From contig NZ_PPCW01000001.1 of the NCBI RefSeq assembly GCF_002959755.1, positions 434,001 to 498,000 on the forward strand: a stretch of 64,000 nt of DNA. The letters are read 5' to 3'. A model generated the notes under the pieces. The model did not search any database and was not told the DNA's origin. It was given only the letters and a program-made list of their open reading frames with translations. The position numbers and the translations under genes were made by a program. The stretch is from Veillonella sp. T11011-6. Lineage in GTDB: Bacteria; Bacillota; Negativicutes; Veillonellales; Veillonellaceae. Shown piece by piece: positions 22,719 to 48,851 of the stretch (positions are counted from its first letter, which is position 1; each line of letters begins with the position of its first letter).

Positions 22719-22995
22719 CGTTACCGATGCCTCCATGTTCGTAAAATAAAAAAGACCCCTCATCTCATACAGAGACGATGGTCCGCGGTTCCACTCTGTT
22801 AGGTACCAATGTAGTACCCACTCATCGCATAACGGCGCGTCACCGGACAAACCTACCTATAATCGGAGTGTCAGCTCGTGAATGCATTTCGTCTACCTAT
22901 CCTTGAACCCTCCCACCATCGGTTCTCGCTAAAAAGTTAGTTGTAGAGTACTTCTTTCAGTCTTAGCTATTAGTAATAATCTATATTGAGATATG
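22719..22995 (-). promoter_or_regulatory. T-box riboswitch leader, cysteine-specific
   Basis: Leader that senses uncharged tRNA(Cys). The antiterminator T-box sequence GTGGAACCGCGG lies at 22783-22795. The Stem I distal region AGCGAGAACCGATGG and the GGTGGGAGGGTTC motif precede a specifier loop reading GAAATGCATT, where UGC at 22884-22886 specifies Cys. A terminator hairpin follows (about 22755-22783) with a T-rich run to 22741. The identity of the downstream gene agrees with the specifier. Confidence 0.92.
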
Positions 22996-34306: not shown

Positions 34307-35050
34307 TCAGAACCACCCGTAAAACGGGTGGTTTGCTCACGGGCTATAAGCCCGTAGTACTAGGCCAGCGTCTAAAGGCGCTGGCTTTCACTGCGTTCAA
34401 GCCGCATAGCCATTGACTCGTAACATTCCCCTTAAAGGGGATATGTATTACTTGCTACCCTTAAAAGGGTCCTCATATTCTTTTACACTAAGTTTATCTT
34501 TCATTTGGTCATGTAACTCTTGCTCACGTATATACTTCTTTACGGTAGCCTCATTTAAACCTACTGTACTAACATAATAACCCTCGGACCCAAAGTGCCT
34601 ATTTCCAAATTTATACTTTAAGTTTGCGTGTTTATCGAACATCATTAGTGCACTTTTCCCCTTTAAATATCCCATAAAAGATGAAACTGATATTTTAGGT
34701 GGGATTAATACTAGCATATGCACATGATCGGCCATAAGCTCCCCCTCTATAATCTTGACGCCCTTATATTCGCATAAACGTCTCAGTATTTCACGTAAAC
34801 TATTTCTGTATTGATTATATATAACTTTACGTCTATACTTAGGTGTAAATACTATGTGGTATTTGCATAACCATTTTGTGTGCGCAAGGCTCTGTGTCTT
34901 TGTTGCCATATAAAATCACCTTTCTTTTGCATATAATGCAGCTTGAACACCTACATTATACTTAAGCAAGGTGATTTTTTTGTATAACTTTCGTTGCCGC
35001 ACCCGCATAGCGGGTGGTTTAATGATTCGCGACTACGTCGCGAACCAGTC
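34307..35050 (-). mobile_element. IS200-type (IS200/IS605 family) insertion sequence
   Basis: About 0.74 kb with a single Y1 transposase and no tnpB. Both ends carry subterminal hairpins in the same orientation: 34312-34332 (ACCACCCG/CGGGTGGT) on one side and 35019-35033 (CACCCG/CGGGTG) plus 35028-35043 (TTCGCGAC/GTCGCGAA region) on the other. Three more hairpins (34339-34356, 34363-34384, 34430-34442) follow the tnpA stop. Exact cut sites are not certain, so the boundaries are estimates. The left edge touches the ctsR -35. Confidence 0.75.
34448..34909 (-). CDS. tnpA: IS200/IS605 family transposase TnpA (Y1 HUH)
   Basis: Single-strand DNA transposase. 153 aa, full length and apparently intact: HUH motif DHVHML (H62, H64), and catalytic tyrosine Y126 within KKYIREQ, fitting the YxxxQ pattern with Q130. 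The ribosome site AAGGTGATTT (about 34912-34921) is complementary to AAATCACCTT about 45 bases upstream in the transcript (near 34966-34975). The start region can therefore fold shut, as known for IS200 self-restraint. Confidence 0.93.
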   Translation of the reverse strand: MATKTQSLAHTKWLCKYHIVFTPKYRRKVIYNQYRNSLREILRRLCEYKGVKIIEGELMADHVHMLVLIPPKISVSSFMGYLKGKSALMMFDKHANLKYKFGNRHFGSEGYYVSTVGLNEATVKKYIREQELHDQMKDKLSVKEYEDPFKGSK

Positions 35051-36466: not shown

Positions 36467-36892
36467 TTACTTCTTTAAAGCCTCTTTTAATGTATGCCAT
36501 GCAAGAACCGCACACTTAACACGTGCTGGCATGTTAGAAATATTTTGCAATGCCATAGCATCTTCTAATTCTTCTAACTCATTTTCATCGGTAATTTCTT
36601 TTTTGATCATACCTAAGAAAATTTCTACCAAACGAAGAGCTTCCTCAACAGATTTTCCCTTAATAATATCAATCATCATAGATGCAGATGCTTGACTGAT
36701 AGCACAACCAGAGCCGGTATAAGCAGCATCTTTGATAATGCCATCTTCTACGTTGAGTTGTAATGTTAGATCATCACCACAACTAGGGTTATGGCCATGT
36801 TCAGAATTTGTAAAATGAGCTAACTCATGTTTATTACGCTTATCTTGGTTATGTTCCAAAATAAGTTCTGTATATAATTGATCCATTTCCAT
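36467..36892 (-). CDS. sufU: SufU sulfur-transfer/scaffold protein
   Basis: Zinc-dependent sulfur acceptor from SufS in Gram-positive-type SUF systems. 141 aa. Conserved ligands C38 and D40 (NPSCGDDL), C63 (GSGCAIS) and C127 (RVKCAVLAW) with the 18-21 residue insert typical of SufU versus IscU. ATG with AGGAG upstream. 14 bp after sufS. Confidence 0.95.
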   Translation of the reverse strand: MEMDQLYTELILEHNQDKRNKHELAHFTNSEHGHNPSCGDDLTLQLNVEDGIIKDAAYTGSGCAISQASASMMIDIIKGKSVEEALRLVEIFLGMIKKEITDENELEELEDAMALQNISNMPARVKCAVLAWHTLKEALKK

Positions 36893-36906
36893 TGATGGTA
36901 AATCTC

Positions 36907-38136
36907 CTAATCTTTAAAACCCATTACTGAACGAACTGTCTTTAATACTTCTAGGAATGCATCTAAATCTTCCTTACGAGTATATAAGTACATGCTTAGA
37001 CGAGTAGATGCAGATACATTGTAGAATGCACCTAATGGTTGTGCACAATGGTGTCCAGAACGAACACAAATGCCTTGAGAGTCCAAAATTGTAGCTACAT
37101 CATGAGGATGTACATCATCTACAGTGAACGCGATTACACCATGTTTTTCCTTAGGATTTTGAGAGCCAATCACGTGAACATGTGGCAATGCAACAATTTT
37201 AGGAAGAATATATGCTACTAGTTCCTCCTCATAAGCCTCAATAGCATCCATGCCAAAAGATTCTAAATAATCAATTGCCGCATGCAAGGAAACGGCACCA
37301 TCAGCATTTGGTGTACCTGCTTCGAACTTATATGGAAGCTCATTGAATGTAGCAGTTTGTTCTTTTACATATTCAATCATATCCCCGCCCAATAGGAAAG
37401 GTGGCATAGCCTCTAATAACTCACGTTTACCATAAAGTACACCAATACCTTGAGATGCACACATTTTATGACCAGAGAATACGAAGAAATCACAATCTAA
37501 TTCTTGGACATCAATTTTTTTATGAGGTGTAGATTGAGCACCATCGAGAACTACTACAGCACCTACGGAATGCGCTTTTTCAGTTAATTCCTTTACAGGG
37601 AATTCCATACCAAGCACGTTACTAACATGAGCAAAGGCTACAATTTTAGTGTTCTCATCAATTTTATTGATTTCACCATCTTTTAAATGCCCATGTTCAT
37701 CAAGGTACATATATTCTAAGGTTGCCCCTGTTTGTTCTGCTACATATTGCCATGTTACAAGATTGGCATGATGTTCCGCAACAGTAATGACAATCTTGTC
37801 ACCTTTCTTCACATTATGAAGACCATAGCTATGAGCAATCAAGTTCATAGATTCTGTACTATTACGTGTAAATACAACTTCTTCACGTTCACGAGCATTG
37901 ATAAATTCAACTACGCGATCACGTGCATTTTCATAGTCTTCAGACGCTTCAATAGCTAAAATATGAGAGCCACGATGTGGATTACCATTACGTTGTGTCA
38001 TATGTTCCACAACACGATCAATTACGGATTGTGGAATTTGTGCAGTAGCACCGCTATCTAAATAAATAACGCGGTGCCCATTATGCTCTTTATGTAGTAT
38101 AGGAAAGTCTTTGTATGCTTCTGCAATTGGTCTCAT
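36907..38136 (-). CDS. sufS: Cysteine desulfurase SufS
   Basis: PLP enzyme that takes sulfur from cysteine for Fe-S assembly. 409 aa. AEHHANLVTWQ, the PLP lysine in FSGHKMCASQGIGVLYGK, and the active-site cysteine in RSGHHCAQPL (group II desulfurase). 12 bp after sufD. It passes persulfide to SufU encoded next. Confidence 0.97.
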   Translation of the reverse strand: MRPIAEAYKDFPILHKEHNGHRVIYLDSGATAQIPQSVIDRVVEHMTQRNGNPHRGSHILAIEASEDYENARDRVVEFINAREREEVVFTRNSTESMNLIAHSYGLHNVKKGDKIVITVAEHHANLVTWQYVAEQTGATLEYMYLDEHGHLKDGEINKIDENTKIVAFAHVSNVLGMEFPVKELTEKAHSVGAVVVLDGAQSTPHKKIDVQELDCDFFVFSGHKMCASQGIGVLYGKRELLEAMPPFLLGGDMIEYVKEQTATFNELPYKFEAGTPNADGAVSLHAAIDYLESFGMDAIEAYEEELVAYILPKIVALPHVHVIGSQNPKEKHGVIAFTVDDVHPHDVATILDSQGICVRSGHHCAQPLGAFYNVSASTRLSMYLYTRKEDLDAFLEVLKTVRSVMGFKD

Positions 38137-38148
38137 AAAAACGCCTCT

Positions 38149-39195
38149 TTAAATTTTATTACGTACAGCTGCTAACGCTGCTTCTTCAATCGTTTCATCA
38201 CCAATGCGATCAATAATAGGTCGAATCATAGATTCTACAATGATATGTTTTGCTTCTACTTCACTAAAGCCACGGCTCATGATATAGAACAATTTATTAT
38301 GATCAATTTGGCCTGCACTCGCTGCATGATTACCCACTACATTATCTTCTTTACACAATAATAGAGGTAAAGAAATAGATTTTACAGTTGGATCTAACAA
38401 TAAGCAAGTATCTTCTTCCGCACCTTCAGAAGCTGTTGCACCATGAAGGAAATCAAGAGTACCACGGAAAGATTTTTTAGAATGCCCACTAAGAGCACCT
38501 AATGTATGAATATCACTGAAGGATTTTTTACCACCATGACTCATAATCATGGAGATATCAAATTTTTGTTCTTCGTTACCAAGATAAGCAATATCATGAA
38601 CCATACGAGATTCTTGACCTACTAAATCATGATAGTAGTTCAAAATATTTTCGCTACCACCAAGTTCAATGTTAATGTATTCTACATCTGCTTTATCTTC
38701 CAATTTTGTATAACGATGTTCGATATGTTGTACATGTTCAGGTAAAAGATTTACCTTTTTCACTACAACCTTACCAGTTTTTTTAACATCGTATTCGTTT
38801 AAATAGCTTACATTCGTGAGTGCATCACCAGAACCAGTTACATAGAATTGTACTTCTAATTCTGCACCTTCACCAACGATAAATTGGAAACGGTTTGCTA
38901 CACGAGCATTAGCATCAATGCGGATACCTACTACTTCTTTCGCTTTAGCAGGTACATTGATAGCATAGCCTTCCGCTTTTTCCACTAATTCTAGAACAGC
39001 TTCTTTATTGGCACCTTCATAATTACCATCTAGTAATGCTGTACCAGTAGGTAATGGTGAAAGAATATTTTGATTCGCTTCTACAGCGATGGATTGTACC
39101 GCTGTATCTTCTCCAGCTAGAGAGCTTACAGTATGATTAACACGTAACCATCTGAATGTCGGTCTAGGGAGTTCATTAAATAGTAATTCGCTCAT
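38149..39195 (-). CDS. sufD: Fe-S assembly protein SufD
   Basis: Beta-helix partner of SufB in the SufBC2D scaffold. 348 aa, somewhat shorter than the ~420-435 aa of Bacillus/E. coli SufD, mainly in the N-terminal part. C-terminal region with the DCLLLDPTVKSISLPLLLCKEDNVVGNHAAS pattern, including the conserved His, and the family end SRGFSEVEAKHIIVESMI. 9 bp after sufB. Confidence 0.92.
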   Translation of the reverse strand: MSELLFNELPRPTFRWLRVNHTVSSLAGEDTAVQSIAVEANQNILSPLPTGTALLDGNYEGANKEAVLELVEKAEGYAINVPAKAKEVVGIRIDANARVANRFQFIVGEGAELEVQFYVTGSGDALTNVSYLNEYDVKKTGKVVVKKVNLLPEHVQHIEHRYTKLEDKADVEYINIELGGSENILNYYHDLVGQESRMVHDIAYLGNEEQKFDISMIMSHGGKKSFSDIHTLGALSGHSKKSFRGTLDFLHGATASEGAEEDTCLLLDPTVKSISLPLLLCKEDNVVGNHAASAGQIDHNKLFYIMSRGFSEVEAKHIIVESMIRPIIDRIGDETIEEAALAAVRNKI

Positions 39196-39204
39196 AATTC
39201 CTCC

Positions 39205-40614
39205 TTAACCGATAGAACCTTCTAATTCAAGATTGATTAGATTGTTCATTTCTACTGCATATTCAAGTGGCAATTCTTTAGAGATTGGCTCTACGAAACC
39301 ACGAACAAGCATAGCGCGAGCTTCTTCTTCGCTGATACCACGAGTCATGAGGTAGAAAATTGCTTCATCGGAAATACGACCGATTTTTGCTTCATGACCT
39401 AAATCCACATTATCGTTTTCTACGATAATTGCTGGGATTGTATCAGATTGAGACTCAGCATCAAGCATCAAGGATTCACAAGAAACTGTTGCTTTAGAAT
39501 GTTCAGCTTTAGGACCAATTTTCAAAAGGCCACGGTAAATTGCAGCGCCACCGGATTTAGAGATGGATTTAGAGTTTACATTACTTGTTGTATATGGTGC
39601 ATTATGTACCACTTTACAGCCTGTATCAAGGAATTGGCCTTCACCAGCGAATGTTACACCTGTAAATTCAGCATGCGCACCTTCACCGTTAAGAATACTC
39701 ATTGGATACAAGCAAGAAACTTTGGAACCAAAGGAACCAGATACCCACTCGATTGTACCATTCTTACCTACTACACAACGTTTTGTGTTAAGGTTGTACA
39801 TATTTTTAGACCAGTTTTCAATTGTAGAGTAACGCAATGTAGCATTGTCTTTAACGAACAATTCAACAGCGCCTGCATGAAGGTTAGATACATCATACTT
39901 AGGAGCAGAGCAACCTTCGATAAAGTGCAATTTAGCACCTTCTTCTACAATGATCATAGTATGTTCAAACTGACCAGCACCTGGTGCATTCAAGCGGAAG
40001 TAAGATTGCAATGGAATCTCTACTTGTACGCCTGCTGGAACGTATACGAAGGAACCGCCAGACCAAACTGCACCATGAAGAGCCGCCCATTTATGGTCTG
40101 TAGGTGGAATCAATGTCATCCAGTATTTTTTTACGATTTCTTCATGTTCATGTAATGCTGTTTCAATATCAGTATAGATAACACCTTGTTTAACAAGATC
40201 TTCTTGAATACTGTGGTAAACAACTTCAGAGTCATATTGTGCACCAACACCAGCAAGAGATGTTTTTTCCGCTTCTGGAATACCTAAGCGGTCAAAGGTG
40301 CTTTTAATTTCTTCTGGAACTTCGTCCCAGTTTTCTTTCATATCTACTTTAGGCTTAACATAAGTATGGATATTAGCCATATCTAAGCCAGAAATATCAG
40401 GAATCCAGTTTGGAATCCCCATACGATTGTAGATTTCTAAAGATTTCAAACGGAAGTCAAGCATCCATTCAGGTTCATTTTTATTAGACCAAATTTCACG
40501 GATAATATCTTCTGTTAAACCGGCATCAGAAATATAAGAATATTCAAAGTCATTCTTAATATCATAGACACCACGGTCCATATCCGCGACTTGGGTTTTC
40601 TTTCTTTCTTCCAT
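39205..40614 (-). CDS. sufB: Fe-S assembly scaffold SufB
   Basis: Main SUF scaffold subunit. 469 aa. N-terminal helical part (YDIKNDFEYSY..EIWSNKNEPEWM), a central beta-helix with HTMIIVEEGAKLHFIEGCSAP, and the C-terminal core with the conserved EGQFLDTGCKVVH Cys and DLGHEAKIGRISDEAIFYLMTRG. ATG with AGGAGG upstream, 8 bp after sufC. Confidence 0.97.
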   Translation of the reverse strand: MEERKKTQVADMDRGVYDIKNDFEYSYISDAGLTEDIIREIWSNKNEPEWMLDFRLKSLEIYNRMGIPNWIPDISGLDMANIHTYVKPKVDMKENWDEVPEEIKSTFDRLGIPEAEKTSLAGVGAQYDSEVVYHSIQEDLVKQGVIYTDIETALHEHEEIVKKYWMTLIPPTDHKWAALHGAVWSGGSFVYVPAGVQVEIPLQSYFRLNAPGAGQFEHTMIIVEEGAKLHFIEGCSAPKYDVSNLHAGAVELFVKDNATLRYSTIENWSKNMYNLNTKRCVVGKNGTIEWVSGSFGSKVSCLYPMSILNGEGAHAEFTGVTFAGEGQFLDTGCKVVHNAPYTTSNVNSKSISKSGGAAIYRGLLKIGPKAEHSKATVSCESLMLDAESQSDTIPAIIVENDNVDLGHEAKIGRISDEAIFYLMTRGISEEEARAMLVRGFVEPISKELPLEYAVEMNNLINLELEGSIG

Positions 40615-40622
40615 TGTGCCTC

Positions 40623-41366
40623 CTATGCTAATGCTTTGTATGCGTCGTAACCTTTTTCTTCGATTTCACGTACAAGAGAAGCATCACCAGTTTTAACGAT
40701 CTTACCGTTGATCAATACATGAACATAGTCAGGTTTTAATTTTTGCAAGATTTGGTTGTGGTGAGTGATGATCAATACAGCATTGTCTTCGTTGTGGAAA
40801 CGTTGTACGCCTTCGGATACGATACGAACTGCGTCTACGTCAAGACCGGAGTCAGTTTCATCAAGAATAGCCAATTTAGGATTCAAAATGGACATTTGAA
40901 GAATTTCATTTTTCTTGCGTTCACCACCGGAGAAACCTTCATTTACATAACGTTGTGCATAGGACAAATCAAAGGATAATTCATCCATTTTTTCTTTCAA
41001 TTCTTTTTTGAAGGATAAGGCACGTACATTTTCGCCAGTAATTGTAGATTTTGCTGTACGAATAAAGTTTTCTACTGTAATGCCAGGAATAGAAATTGGA
41101 TTTTGGAAGGACATGAAAATACCAGCTTTTGCACGATCGTTTACTGCATCTTCTGTAATATCTTTACCATCAAAAATAATGGAGCCGCTGTCTACAGTAT
41201 ATGTAGAGTTACCCATGATAGCATTAGCAAGTGTAGACTTACCTGCACCATTTGTGCCCATTACAACGTGAATTTCACCTTTATTAATTGTTAAGTTGAT
41301 ACCTTTCAAGATTTGTTTATCTTCAACGGATACCTTTAAATCTTTTATCTGAAGTAATTCAGCCAA
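40623..41366 (-). CDS. sufC: Fe-S assembly ATPase SufC
   Basis: ABC-type soluble ATPase of SufBC2D. 247 aa from the TTG at 41364-41366 (MAELLQIKDL), with AAGGAG eight bases upstream; an in-frame GTG at 41373-41375 overlaps that ribosome site. Walker A MGTNGAGKSTLA, signature FSGGERKKNEILQM, Walker B KLAILDETDSGLD and the H-loop IITHHNQIL. First gene of sufCBDSU-HAD. Preceded by a leader with an internal terminator. Confidence 0.95.
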   Translation of the reverse strand: MAELLQIKDLKVSVEDKQILKGINLTINKGEIHVVMGTNGAGKSTLANAIMGNSTYTVDSGSIIFDGKDITEDAVNDRAKAGIFMSFQNPISIPGITVENFIRTAKSTITGENVRALSFKKELKEKMDELSFDLSYAQRYVNEGFSGGERKKNEILQMSILNPKLAILDETDSGLDVDAVRIVSEGVQRFHNEDNAVLIITHHNQILQKLKPDYVHVLINGKIVKTGDASLVREIEEKGYDAYKALA

Positions 41367-41520
41367 AATATTCACTCCTTTTTATTATGTATCCTCAATA
41401 TCGAGGCATACAATCGTTATATGTAAAACGTATATACTGACACATATAAAAAGGCGGTACGCACTAACGTGAATACCGCCGTAATTCTCGCCAACTTAGC
41501 AAGTATGTGCATAACAATCT
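41367..41520 (-). promoter_or_regulatory. suf operon leader with premature terminator (candidate attenuator)
   Basis: The predicted transcript from about 41520 contains, before sufC, a GC-rich hairpin GGCGGTA/TACCGCC (41453-41459, 41474-41480) with an inner CAC/GTG stem, then TTTTTATAT on the minus strand: a rho-independent terminator inside the leader. A smaller stem CTTGC/GCGAG lies 5' to it (about 41487-41503), and a CCTC/GAGG palindrome (41397-41410) lies 3', before the ribosome site. I recognise no known riboswitch or T-box here. Confidence 0.65.
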
Positions 41521-41526
41521 ACAATT

Positions 41527-41555
41527 ATTATACATTCTTATCTAAATGATAGCAA
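41527..41555 (-). promoter_or_regulatory. Predicted promoter of the suf operon
   Basis: TTGCTA (41550-41555), 17-bp spacer, TATAAT (41527-41532) on the minus strand, lying between lysA and the leader hairpin. Confidence 0.7.
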
Positions 41556-41662
41556 GATATTCCTACTAAAATATACAGGAATTAAAAGAATATCATATAT
41601 TACATATATTGATAGGCTTTTAATAATATTCATTCTCATCCTATTCGATTCTCAATATTAAA

Positions 41663-45861: not shown

Positions 45862-46428
45862 CTATTTTGAAACTTGATTAATTAATGCTTTACAGATATT
45901 AACAATACTATCTCGTTTCTTCATACTTAGGGCGCGAATACGATTATAGGCTTCCTCTTCTGATATAGAGTATAGCTCCATCAATATACCGGTTCCTTTT
46001 TGAATGATTTTACGATCCTCTAATGATTGTTCTAATTCAGCCATTTTTTCGCGTAGCTCAGCATCACTATGATAACGCCCTAATGCCATTTCTAAGGTTG
46101 GAACCAATTGTTCTTCACGAACAGGCTTAATTAAATATCCATATACGCCAGATTCTCTAGCCTTATTTATTAAATCCTGTTGACTATAACTTGTTAATAG
46201 AACTACAGGTGCTTCATGGTGAAAGCCAATTTGTCGTGCTGCTTCGATGCCATCTAATTCTGGCATTTTTACATCCATTAGAACAATATCAGGTTTATAT
46301 TCTTTGCAAAGTTTAATGGCTTCTACCCCATTAGTGCCTTCTGCTACAACTTCATGACCACAGGATTCAATAATATCGCGTAGATCCATACGTATAAGGG
46401 ATTCATCATCCACTATTAAAACGCGCAT
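45862..46428 (-). CDS. Response regulator with ANTAR RNA-binding output domain
   Basis: 188 aa. Receiver domain: acidic pair VDDES near residue 8, phospho-acceptor Asp in IVLMDVKMPE (about 52), conserved Ser/Thr in VVLLTSYS, Lys in YLIKPVREE. A coiled-coil linker follows, then an ANTAR domain (about 130-186, ending ALSMKKRDSIVNICKALI). ANTAR regulators such as EutV bind paired RNA hairpins and prevent termination. It starts right after the kinase stop. Its RNA target is not evident in this window. Confidence 0.93.
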   Translation of the reverse strand: MRVLIVDDESLIRMDLRDIIESCGHEVVAEGTNGVEAIKLCKEYKPDIVLMDVKMPELDGIEAARQIGFHHEAPVVLLTSYSQQDLINKARESGVYGYLIKPVREEQLVPTLEMALGRYHSDAELREKMAELEQSLEDRKIIQKGTGILMELYSISEEEAYNRIRALSMKKRDSIVNICKALINQVSK

Positions 46429-47817
46429 TTACTTCTCCTTCTTCATATGTATTGTTACGAGTACACCAACACCCGTATTTGCTACAGATAATTTACCTTT
46501 TAGCTCATGAGTAACTAAATTATTAATGATAGTTAGTCCTAAGCGTTTGTTGGAGTTAATAGAAAACTCTGGAGGTAATCCTTTCCCCGTATCAGAAAAG
46601 GCTAATACAATATATTCCTCTGACTCTGTAACAGCTAAACGAATCTCTCCATTTTTACCATCTAAGCCATGTTCAAGGCTATTGGTAATTAGCTCATTAA
46701 TTATGAGGGATACATAACTTGCCATATGAGAGGAAATCAACATATCCTCTCCACTATAAGTAAAGGTAACATCTTGGTCTTGTTGAACCATACTCATACG
46801 CAATAAGCGACATAGCTCGTCATAAATTGATCGGATACCTATATAATCCTCGTCATAATGGGATACAATATCGTGAACTAATGCCATACTTTCAATACGA
46901 TTTATTCCCTCTTGCAAGGCTTGTTTAACCTCAGGTAAGCTAGAACGTCTAGCCTCCATACGCAACAATCCAGCTACCGTTTGTAAATTGTTTTTTACAC
47001 GATGGTGAACCTCTTTAATAATCGAGTTCTTTACCAGTAATTCTTGTTGCTGCTTACTTTCACGGGTACAATCGTGAAGCACGAGGAAACAACGTGTTTC
47101 ATTACGGCCCATAGCAATAGGAATCATATGTTGACGAATGACCATATCTTGATAGATTTCTTCACTAGTGTATATCGTTCTATCATCTAACACTTGTTGG
47201 ATGGCTGAAACTTTTAAGGTACTGCTATAAATCGACGAGCCCACAAGTCGTCGGTCAAATCCTAGCAAATCTACTAGTTGTACAGCCGCCTCATTACCAT
47301 ACAGAATTCTATGAGAATCATCAAAAATAATTAAACCGTCAAAATATGAGATTGGTTCATACGATTGTATTTGCTCATCCGTAGCAGTCAGCATGAGCCG
47401 TTGCATCGTATCTGACAAGGTATATTCTTGCTCATATTGCTCTATCTTAATAGACGGAGACACGGTAAAAGCTATGCCCCCAATAATACGACCACCATTA
47501 TCTACAACAGGAAAAACATGTTGTCGTTGATCATGTTCTACCCCAATAAGCGGTTGTCCATTTTCCATCATAGAATGCCATGTATTATTCCCTTTTAACT
47601 GTCGAGTAATAACACCTTGGTCACTTCGTTCAATACACAGCATATCGGCACGATGATGCATAGTACCTTGTGAGGACTCTAGAAGAGGTGTAAAAATCTG
47701 TATCCTTTGACGGGTCAATGACTCGCCAAAGGATATAAGTTTACTAATATGCTCTAATAATGAGGTTTGTAATGGACCTAATGGTGTTGTATTTAAAATA
47801 TCTTGACCGATATCCAC
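46429..47817 (-). CDS. Soluble sensor histidine kinase (HisKA_2 type, EutW-like)
   Basis: About 462 aa with no membrane segment, so a cytosolic sensor. N-terminal GAF-like domain (to about 150), a PAS domain (about 160-255), phospho-acceptor His in VHHRVKNNLQTVAGLLRME, then a HATPase domain with ELITNSLEHGLDG (N box) and DTGKGLPPEF (G1). Start chosen at GTG 47815-47817 with AGAGGA at six bases, just after the tsaD stop. A TTG frame from 47835 would overlap tsaD. Pairs with the ANTAR regulator. Confidence 0.9.
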   Translation of the reverse strand: MDIGQDILNTTPLGPLQTSLLEHISKLISFGESLTRQRIQIFTPLLESSQGTMHHRADMLCIERSDQGVITRQLKGNNTWHSMMENGQPLIGVEHDQRQHVFPVVDNGGRIIGGIAFTVSPSIKIEQYEQEYTLSDTMQRLMLTATDEQIQSYEPISYFDGLIIFDDSHRILYGNEAAVQLVDLLGFDRRLVGSSIYSSTLKVSAIQQVLDDRTIYTSEEIYQDMVIRQHMIPIAMGRNETRCFLVLHDCTRESKQQQELLVKNSIIKEVHHRVKNNLQTVAGLLRMEARRSSLPEVKQALQEGINRIESMALVHDIVSHYDEDYIGIRSIYDELCRLLRMSMVQQDQDVTFTYSGEDMLISSHMASYVSLIINELITNSLEHGLDGKNGEIRLAVTESEEYIVLAFSDTGKGLPPEFSINSNKRLGLTIINNLVTHELKGKLSVANTGVGVLVTIHMKKEK

Positions 47818-47819
47818 GA

Positions 47820-48851
47820 TTAATCCTCTTTCCAAGATACATGTCCAATTTCAACACTTGGTTTTGCATTCAATGTTAAATCTGCGAATTTACCCGCTTG
47901 AGCCATATAATAAGCGCGACAACCAATCATCGCTGCATTATCAGTGGACAAAATTTTATGAGGCTTGTAATAGGTAAACCCTTCTTTTTCGCACATCTTT
48001 TGTAATGCTGTTTGTAAACCTTTATTAGCCGAAACACCACCAGCTATAGTAATACGAGTTTCCCCCAATGTATGCGCTGCATCTCGTGTTTTCTCAACTA
48101 ATACATCTACAATCGCCTTTTGGAAGGATGCTGCAACGTCTGCTTGATTTATCGGCTCATTCTTTTGCTGCTTACTATTTAAATAGTTTAATACAGCAGA
48201 TTTTAAGCCACTAAAACTAAATTCGAAATTACCAGGTTCACTCAAAGCCTTTGGAAATTCAATAGCATCTGGATTGCCTTCAATTGCGAGGGCATCGATA
48301 TGAGGGCCACCTGGGTAAGGGAACCCCATAACACGAGCAATTTTATCAAATGCTTCCCCCGCTGCGTCATCGCGAGTCTGTCCAAGAATATCAAACTCTT
48401 CATAGCCTTTTACATGCACTAACATGGTATGACCACCAGACACAACGAGGCTTAAAAATGGAGGCTCCAATTCAGGATTGGCTAAGAAATTAGCAAAGAT
48501 ATGACCTTCCATATGGTGAACTGGTACCAAAGGAATACCTGTAGCAAAGGATAACCCCTTTGCAGCAGCTACACCAACTAATAATGCGCCCACTAGACCT
48601 GGGCCATAGGTAACGCCAATATGGTCTATATCTTGTAAGGTTACATTTGCATCGCGCAATGCTTGATCTATAACCGGTATAACTTGTTCAATATGATGAC
48701 GTGATGCGATTTCTGGTACAACACCACCAAATTTTCTATGAATAGGCACTTGGCTAGAAATTACATTAGATAAAACAGTACGCCCATCCTTTAGGACAGA
48801 TGCAGATGTTTCATCGCAACTACTTTCCAAGGCTAATGTGTAAATACTCAT
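47820..48851 (-). CDS. tsaD: tRNA t6A37 threonylcarbamoyltransferase TsaD
   Basis: Transfers threonylcarbamoyl to A37 of ANN-reading tRNAs with TsaB and TsaE. 343 aa. ALESSCDETSASV at the start, metal-site VPVHHMEGHIFAN (H..E.H), and the ASKH-fold phosphate motifs SLVVSGGHTMLV and ITIAGGVSANKGL. Overlaps rimI as ATGA. Confidence 0.97.
   Translation of the reverse strand: MSIYTLALESSCDETSASVLKDGRTVLSNVISSQVPIHRKFGGVVPEIASRHHIEQVIPVIDQALRDANVTLQDIDHIGVTYGPGLVGALLVGVAAAKGLSFATGIPLVPVHHMEGHIFANFLANPELEPPFLSLVVSGGHTMLVHVKGYEEFDILGQTRDDAAGEAFDKIARVMGFPYPGGPHIDALAIEGNPDAIEFPKALSEPGNFEFSFSGLKSAVLNYLNSKQQKNEPINQADVAASFQKAIVDVLVEKTRDAAHTLGETRITIAGGVSANKGLQTALQKMCEKEGFTYYKPHKILSTDNAAMIGCRAYYMAQAGKFADLTLNAKPSVEIGHVSWKED

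Follow-up and report, generated by a model that had tools for sequence, protein, structure and literature searches.

A conserved promoter, hairpin and terminator ahead of the suf operon in the Veillonella family: a candidate transcription attenuator

Control of the suf operon is usually described at the promoter, the regulators being Fur, IscR, SufR or OxyR. The region ahead of sufC in the window (this term denoting the whole 64,000-nucleotide stretch of DNA that was analysed) raises the question of whether transcription of the Fe-S cluster assembly genes is also controlled after it has begun, as a reading made from the sequence alone (the “sequence-only reading”) had placed there a premature terminator and had proposed from it attenuation by a novel cis-regulatory RNA. 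The window is carried by a genome of 2.05 Mb whose nearest named relatives are Veillonella, its SufC being 97% identical to that of V. infantium and 96% identical to that of V. denticariosi. For comparison a family sample of 28 genomes was used, which covers four GTDB genera (numbered 1 to 4) and includes V. caviae, V. ratti and Veillonella sp. VA137. The features of the locus are the following:

42937-41663, minus strand: lysA, the upstream neighbour of sufC
41556..41583, minus strand: upstream element AATTCCTGTATATTTTAGTAGGAATATC, which abuts the -35 and has a pairwise identity of 0.92-0.98 in genus 1
41527..41555, minus strand: promoter P1, TTGCTA-17-TATAAT, with a predicted +1 at ~41520, in the same place in 28/28 genomes
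41506..41514, minus strand: leader segment near-invariant in genus 1, UUAUGCACA, with complementarity to the 3’ arm of the terminator
41487..41503, minus strand: hairpin 1 (CUUGCUAAGUUGGCGAG), a covarying helix with 4/6 pairs changed on both sides
41453..41480, minus strand: intrinsic terminator hairpin GGCGGUAUUCACGUUAGUGCGUACCGCC, -17.1 kcal/mol, with 6/11 pairs changed on both sides
41448..41452, minus strand: terminator U-run by sequence, the predicted 3’ end of a terminated RNA of ~73 nt
41375..41380, minus strand: sufC Shine-Dalgarno sequence AAGGAG, assigned by sequence and common to relatives
40623..41366, minus strand: sufC (ABC_tran), its likely TTG start placed by alignment with relatives beginning GTG-SELL
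36467..40614, minus strand: sufB, sufD, sufS and a SufU-like gene (named from its ORF sequence), the remaining operon genes

Read along the minus strand, the order between lysA and sufC is P1, hairpin 1, terminator with its U-run, Shine-Dalgarno sequence and sufC. The start codon of sufC is likely to be the TTG at 41366, which lies eight bases behind AAGGAG and is aligned with the start in relatives; the start called by the gene-finding tool (GTG at 41375) overlaps the Shine-Dalgarno sequence. With the TTG as start, the leader would therefore measure ~154 nt, close to the 155 nt estimated earlier, and its fold has a z of -3.5 versus dinucleotide shuffles. The terminator hairpin, in which the arms GGCGGUAUUCAC and GUGCGUACCGCC are joined by GUUA and followed by UUUUU, is located 183 nt past the lysA stop and 78 nt ahead of the sufC ORF as called, while the distance from the P1 start site to the terminator is short (~40-60 nt). 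The GC-rich hairpin with a T-run that the sequence-only reading had seen inside the leader is thereby confirmed, at 41480-41453 plus five U.

The TTGCTA-17-TATAAT promoter described upstream of this hairpin is likewise present, on the minus strand at 41555-41527, ahead of sufC. A promoter scan alone constitutes no evidence in this AT-rich window, 29 sites having been found versus 27.8 expected. Across the family, TTGC..17..TATAAT with the same spacing is located before sufC in 28/28 genomes, and P1 is the top-scoring promoter in every leader compared, from which we infer that P1 is the suf promoter. The core of the upstream element next to its -35, TAGTAGnAAT..(C)TTGC, is common to the other genera, and the element is possibly an operator or an UP element. 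No second copy of the core was found within 3 mismatches elsewhere in the genome, which encodes three Rrf2-type regulators; a second genomic match in L002 was dismissed as chance, being located inside a comEA-like coding region. Genus 2 (L024-L029) has an extra conserved promoter-like sequence upstream of P1, TTTACA-17-TATAAT, ~310-340 nt before sufC and preceded by an ATCCCT..GGGAAT palindrome.

P1, hairpin 1 and the terminator are conserved as a unit before sufC, on the same strand, in all 28 family genomes. The covariance model that had been suggested for suf leaders was built on hairpin 1 and the terminator from 11 of the leaders, and with its E-values, which are rough, it gave one strong match per genome, directly before sufC, in 28/28; second matches appeared in few family genomes at E 0.008 or worse, the one in L061 being an ordinary bidirectional terminator. 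A class-wide search of 380 genomes returned no other strong match (best outside the family, E 1.4e-4), and the model matched none of 46 sufC loci outside Veillonella at E < 0.1. The ten best of the weak matches elsewhere in the class were inspected and set aside, none being near sufC; these matches look like ordinary, often bidirectional terminators. V. agrestimuris, which was not in the model, has P1, hairpin 1 and the terminator before sufC, with a compensatory GGUGG/CCACC for GGCGG/CCGCC. In alignment A4, which was fitted to the model structure (A1 and A3, in which genus 2 or 3 arms are misplaced, were left out), 10 of the 17 pairs of hairpin 1 and the terminator are changed on both sides, and 90% of the cells are paired, versus 80% in shuffled and 38-61% in slid alignments. 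Both helices thus covary, and no strong match near sufC was found outside the family. Concerning the smaller hairpins reported on either side of the terminator, conservation and covariation were found for the upstream one (41503-41487); its downstream counterpart lacks conservation across the family, and the idea of a further conserved hairpin behind the terminator, in front of the Shine-Dalgarno sequence, was rejected as unsupported there. Judged by this comparison, the leader with its premature terminator is a real, family-specific RNA and more than a product of chance, and its organisation makes it reasonably probable that it attenuates transcription of suf (sufCBDSU) specifically in this family.

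The main rival, which we regard as unlikely, is that P1 and the terminator form the gene of a trans-acting small RNA (~75-100 nt), with sufC transcribed from a promoter of its own behind the terminator. The anatomy alone is compatible with such a gene, and so is the pattern within genus 1, where identity amounts to 0.81-1.0 between the upstream element and the end of the U-run but to 0.16-0.78 past it, the conserved block stopping at the U-run as it would in a small RNA, and where the first ~30 nt of the transcript are near-invariant. Between genera, however, the 5’ part of the leader is not conserved, unlike the seed of a small RNA, and the unit always stands exactly before sufC. With respect to the second promoter, part of genus 1 has, behind the terminator, a recurring weak promoter-like GTGTCA-16-TATAAY, with p = 0.03 in two genomes, in favour of a separate sufC promoter, but in genera 2-4, and in the greater part of genus 1, no promoter that is conserved or significant was found in the interval from terminator to sufC, where the highest-scoring promoter-like match is better than shuffles in a small number of genomes only. 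A suf start downstream of 41453, which the sequence-only reading had named as the case that would count against it, is accordingly not suggested by any conserved promoter found in that interval. P1 being the sole conserved promoter found, its transcripts would therefore end at ~73 nt unless the polymerase reads through.

A further explanation would reduce the hairpin to the terminator of lysA, with P1 incidental and the suf start downstream. It draws on the presence of lysA upstream in all four genera, in some species with only ~60 nt from the lysA stop to P1, on the absence of any other good terminator after lysA in our scan, and on sister family f3, which has that ordinary arrangement: lysA is upstream there too, the terminator follows the lysA stop directly, at a distance to sufC similar to that of the suf-leader terminator, and the suf promoter is located behind it. 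We nevertheless consider this explanation very unlikely. At 183 nt, the suf-leader hairpin is the furthest from its preceding gene among the intergenic terminators found in the window, most of the others being 2-62 nt from the preceding stop, with one pair at 107 and one just behind a tRNA. Moreover, the lysA stop of genus 2 is located 520-690 nt before sufC and more than 300 nt ahead of P1, with a long AT-rich inverted repeat behind it, and still P1 and the terminator remain together beside sufC. Identity in genus 1 at the lysA end is 0.55-0.61, below that of the suf leader block. The distance and the joint conservation of P1 and terminator thus uphold the earlier statement that the hairpin does not lie at the end of lysA, and as the f3 arrangement differs, a promoter followed by a terminator is an arrangement characteristic of the Veillonella family.

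Other promoter-proximal sequences were observed around these loci. Between lysA and P1 (41624-41655, minus strand) there are two TTGAGAAT/TGAGAAT repeats, the second of which resembles a Fur box (TGAGAATGAATATTA); they go with suf, because an insertion in V. caviae (L014) separates lysA from them, and they were not seen in the other genera. Families f3 and f4 have another suf promoter in common (L031, L032, L157-L161, L165, L168, L173-L176), TTGACTTT-(about 13)-GGAGTAAYCT-like; this promoter, whose -10 is odd, probably represents a separate kind of regulated promoter. Family f2 has a third suf promoter type, TTTACA..ATATAAAATGGAATAAG.

Returning to the attenuator, the loop region of hairpin 1 is the 5’ strand of a putative antiterminator in related genera, CCAAAGUGG in hairpin 1 being complementary to CCACUUUGG at the terminator tip. 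Genera 2 and 3, together with the deep genus-1 lineages L015 and L020, show this complementarity in perfect form, with a dG of -11.5 to -16.9 and p 0.000-0.004 versus shuffled tips, and genus 4 shows it in an imperfect one, with one bulge. In folds of the growing transcript, the pairing forms as the tip emerges and yields once the terminator 3’ arm has been made, and by this modelling an antiterminator role is plausible. Covariation of the putative helix is no better than in shuffles, as there is very little variation in the segments wherever they pair. In crown Veillonella, including the window, the same pairing is eroded (dG -3.5 to -8.0, p 0.08-0.42), and the predicted nascent folds of the window’s group contain no antiterminator. 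Complementarity between the leader segment UUAUGCACA and the terminator 3’ arm has a dG of -9.6 to -10.5 and p 0.007-0.03, these p-values being modest and the pairing having been found post hoc on related sequences. Both complementarities are present in L015, and from the sequences it looks as if the antiterminator has turned over within genus 1. At the same position (41506-41514, minus strand), a short distance past the suf promoter, the sequence TTATGCACA agrees with the DnaA-box consensus, TTATNCACA, and shows no change in almost all of genus 1; this agreement may be a coincidence with the proposed RNA pairing.

The erosion of the antiterminator in the window’s group, where hairpin 1 and the terminator are left, is what would be expected if the terminator were a fixed dampener, its constant partial read-through lowering suf expression with no switch involved. 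Such a dampener would have no need of hairpin 1 and a leader that are conserved and covarying, nor of the strong complementarity in other genera, and we judge it distinctly improbable. The earlier proposal stands in part: conservation of the unit in 28/28 genomes and its absence from Rfam fit attenuation by a new cis-regulatory RNA, whereas the sensing of iron, sulfur or cysteine put forward by the sequence-only reading is conjectural, nothing in the sequence pointing to a ligand, a protein or a condition.

With regard to known systems, the Rfam search of the suf leader gave no family near threshold and chance matches only (IS102 with 17.6 bits versus 46; CRISPR-DR40), as anticipated by the sequence-only reading, which had recognised no known riboswitch or T-box. 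A T-box (RF00230) is likewise built of an antiterminator 5’ strand followed by a terminator, and GUGG/UACCGC in the suf leader bears a superficial resemblance to it, but the leader has no room for stem I or a specifier loop, no Rfam T-box match is obtained there even at E 10, and the UGG of the UGGN that would meet the tRNA end is UAG in L014 and L080 (GUGGC being GUAGC in V. caviae and V. agrestimuris). Elsewhere in the window, a T-box leader (RF00230, 110.9 bits) is located at 22768-22973 on the minus strand. In an ANTAR-type leader one would expect a pair of hairpins whose hexaloops carry A1 and G4 and of which the second overlaps the terminator. This type was rejected here: hairpin 1 has no hexaloop, the loop in the window no G4, and the terminator tip is a tetraloop. 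Pairs of ANTAR regulators and HisKA_2 kinases usually control leaders by antitermination, and the window encodes an ANTAR-domain response regulator beside a HisKA_2 histidine kinase at 45862-47835 (minus strand). It also contains, at 34448-34909 (minus strand), an ORF that, judged from its sequence, resembles an IS200/IS605-type TnpA transposase. The 31-codon frame that had been noted across the hairpin exists in the window, but stops after 9 codons in L013 and after 5 in L015 and is absent in genera 2 and 3; a leader peptide was therefore rejected, there being no conserved short frame with a ribosome site.

The suf leader shares with terminator/antiterminator attenuators, such as riboswitch expression platforms and protein-controlled leaders, the sequence of promoter, short leader and terminator before the first gene, and in several genera an upstream strand able to pair with the terminator tip. 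It differs from them in being very short, in having no recognisable aptamer or known regulator, and in preceding suf genes; it is new as an RNA family and ordinary in kind. PMC8632094 describes, from Veillonella-type genomes, the gltD, ldh2, ilvD and potE motifs as candidate leader RNAs; these concern other genes, the ilvD motif also comes with a possible terminator, and the main text of the paper names no suf motif. Our literature search found no suf attenuator described in the Veillonella family. Suf promoters controlled by IscR, SufR or Fur regulate the same operon, but on DNA at the promoter, whereas the present proposal adds a step at the RNA level.

In the proposed mechanism, RNA polymerase would start at P1 and meet the intrinsic terminator within ~75-100 nt, terminated P1 transcripts reaching up to ~95 nt in other genera, and sufCBDSU mRNA would be made only by those polymerases that read through. 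Transcription of suf would thus probably have to pass a built-in brake before the Fe-S genes are made. In a form that is probably ancestral, CCAAAGUGG would pair with CCACUUUGG as the tip emerges and delay the terminator, so that anything stabilising or freeing hairpin 1 would set the read-through; genera 2 and 3 and the two deep genus-1 lineages would have kept this form, and genus 4 would have kept it imperfectly. Within the window’s group, pairing of UUAUGCACA with the 3’ arm may have assumed the antiterminator role. The larger idea of a miniature RNA sensor, restricted to the Veillonella family, that directly couples Fe-S-cluster, iron or cysteine status to suf transcription, its antiterminator having been rewired within one genus from pairing of hairpin 1 with the terminator tip to pairing of the leader with the 3’ arm, is speculative, and we think it improbable. 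The swap of antiterminators between lineages, if real, would constitute a natural experiment on attenuator evolution. A terminator conserved in the suf leader of the whole family would add RNA-level control to an essential pathway of common human oral and gut anaerobes.
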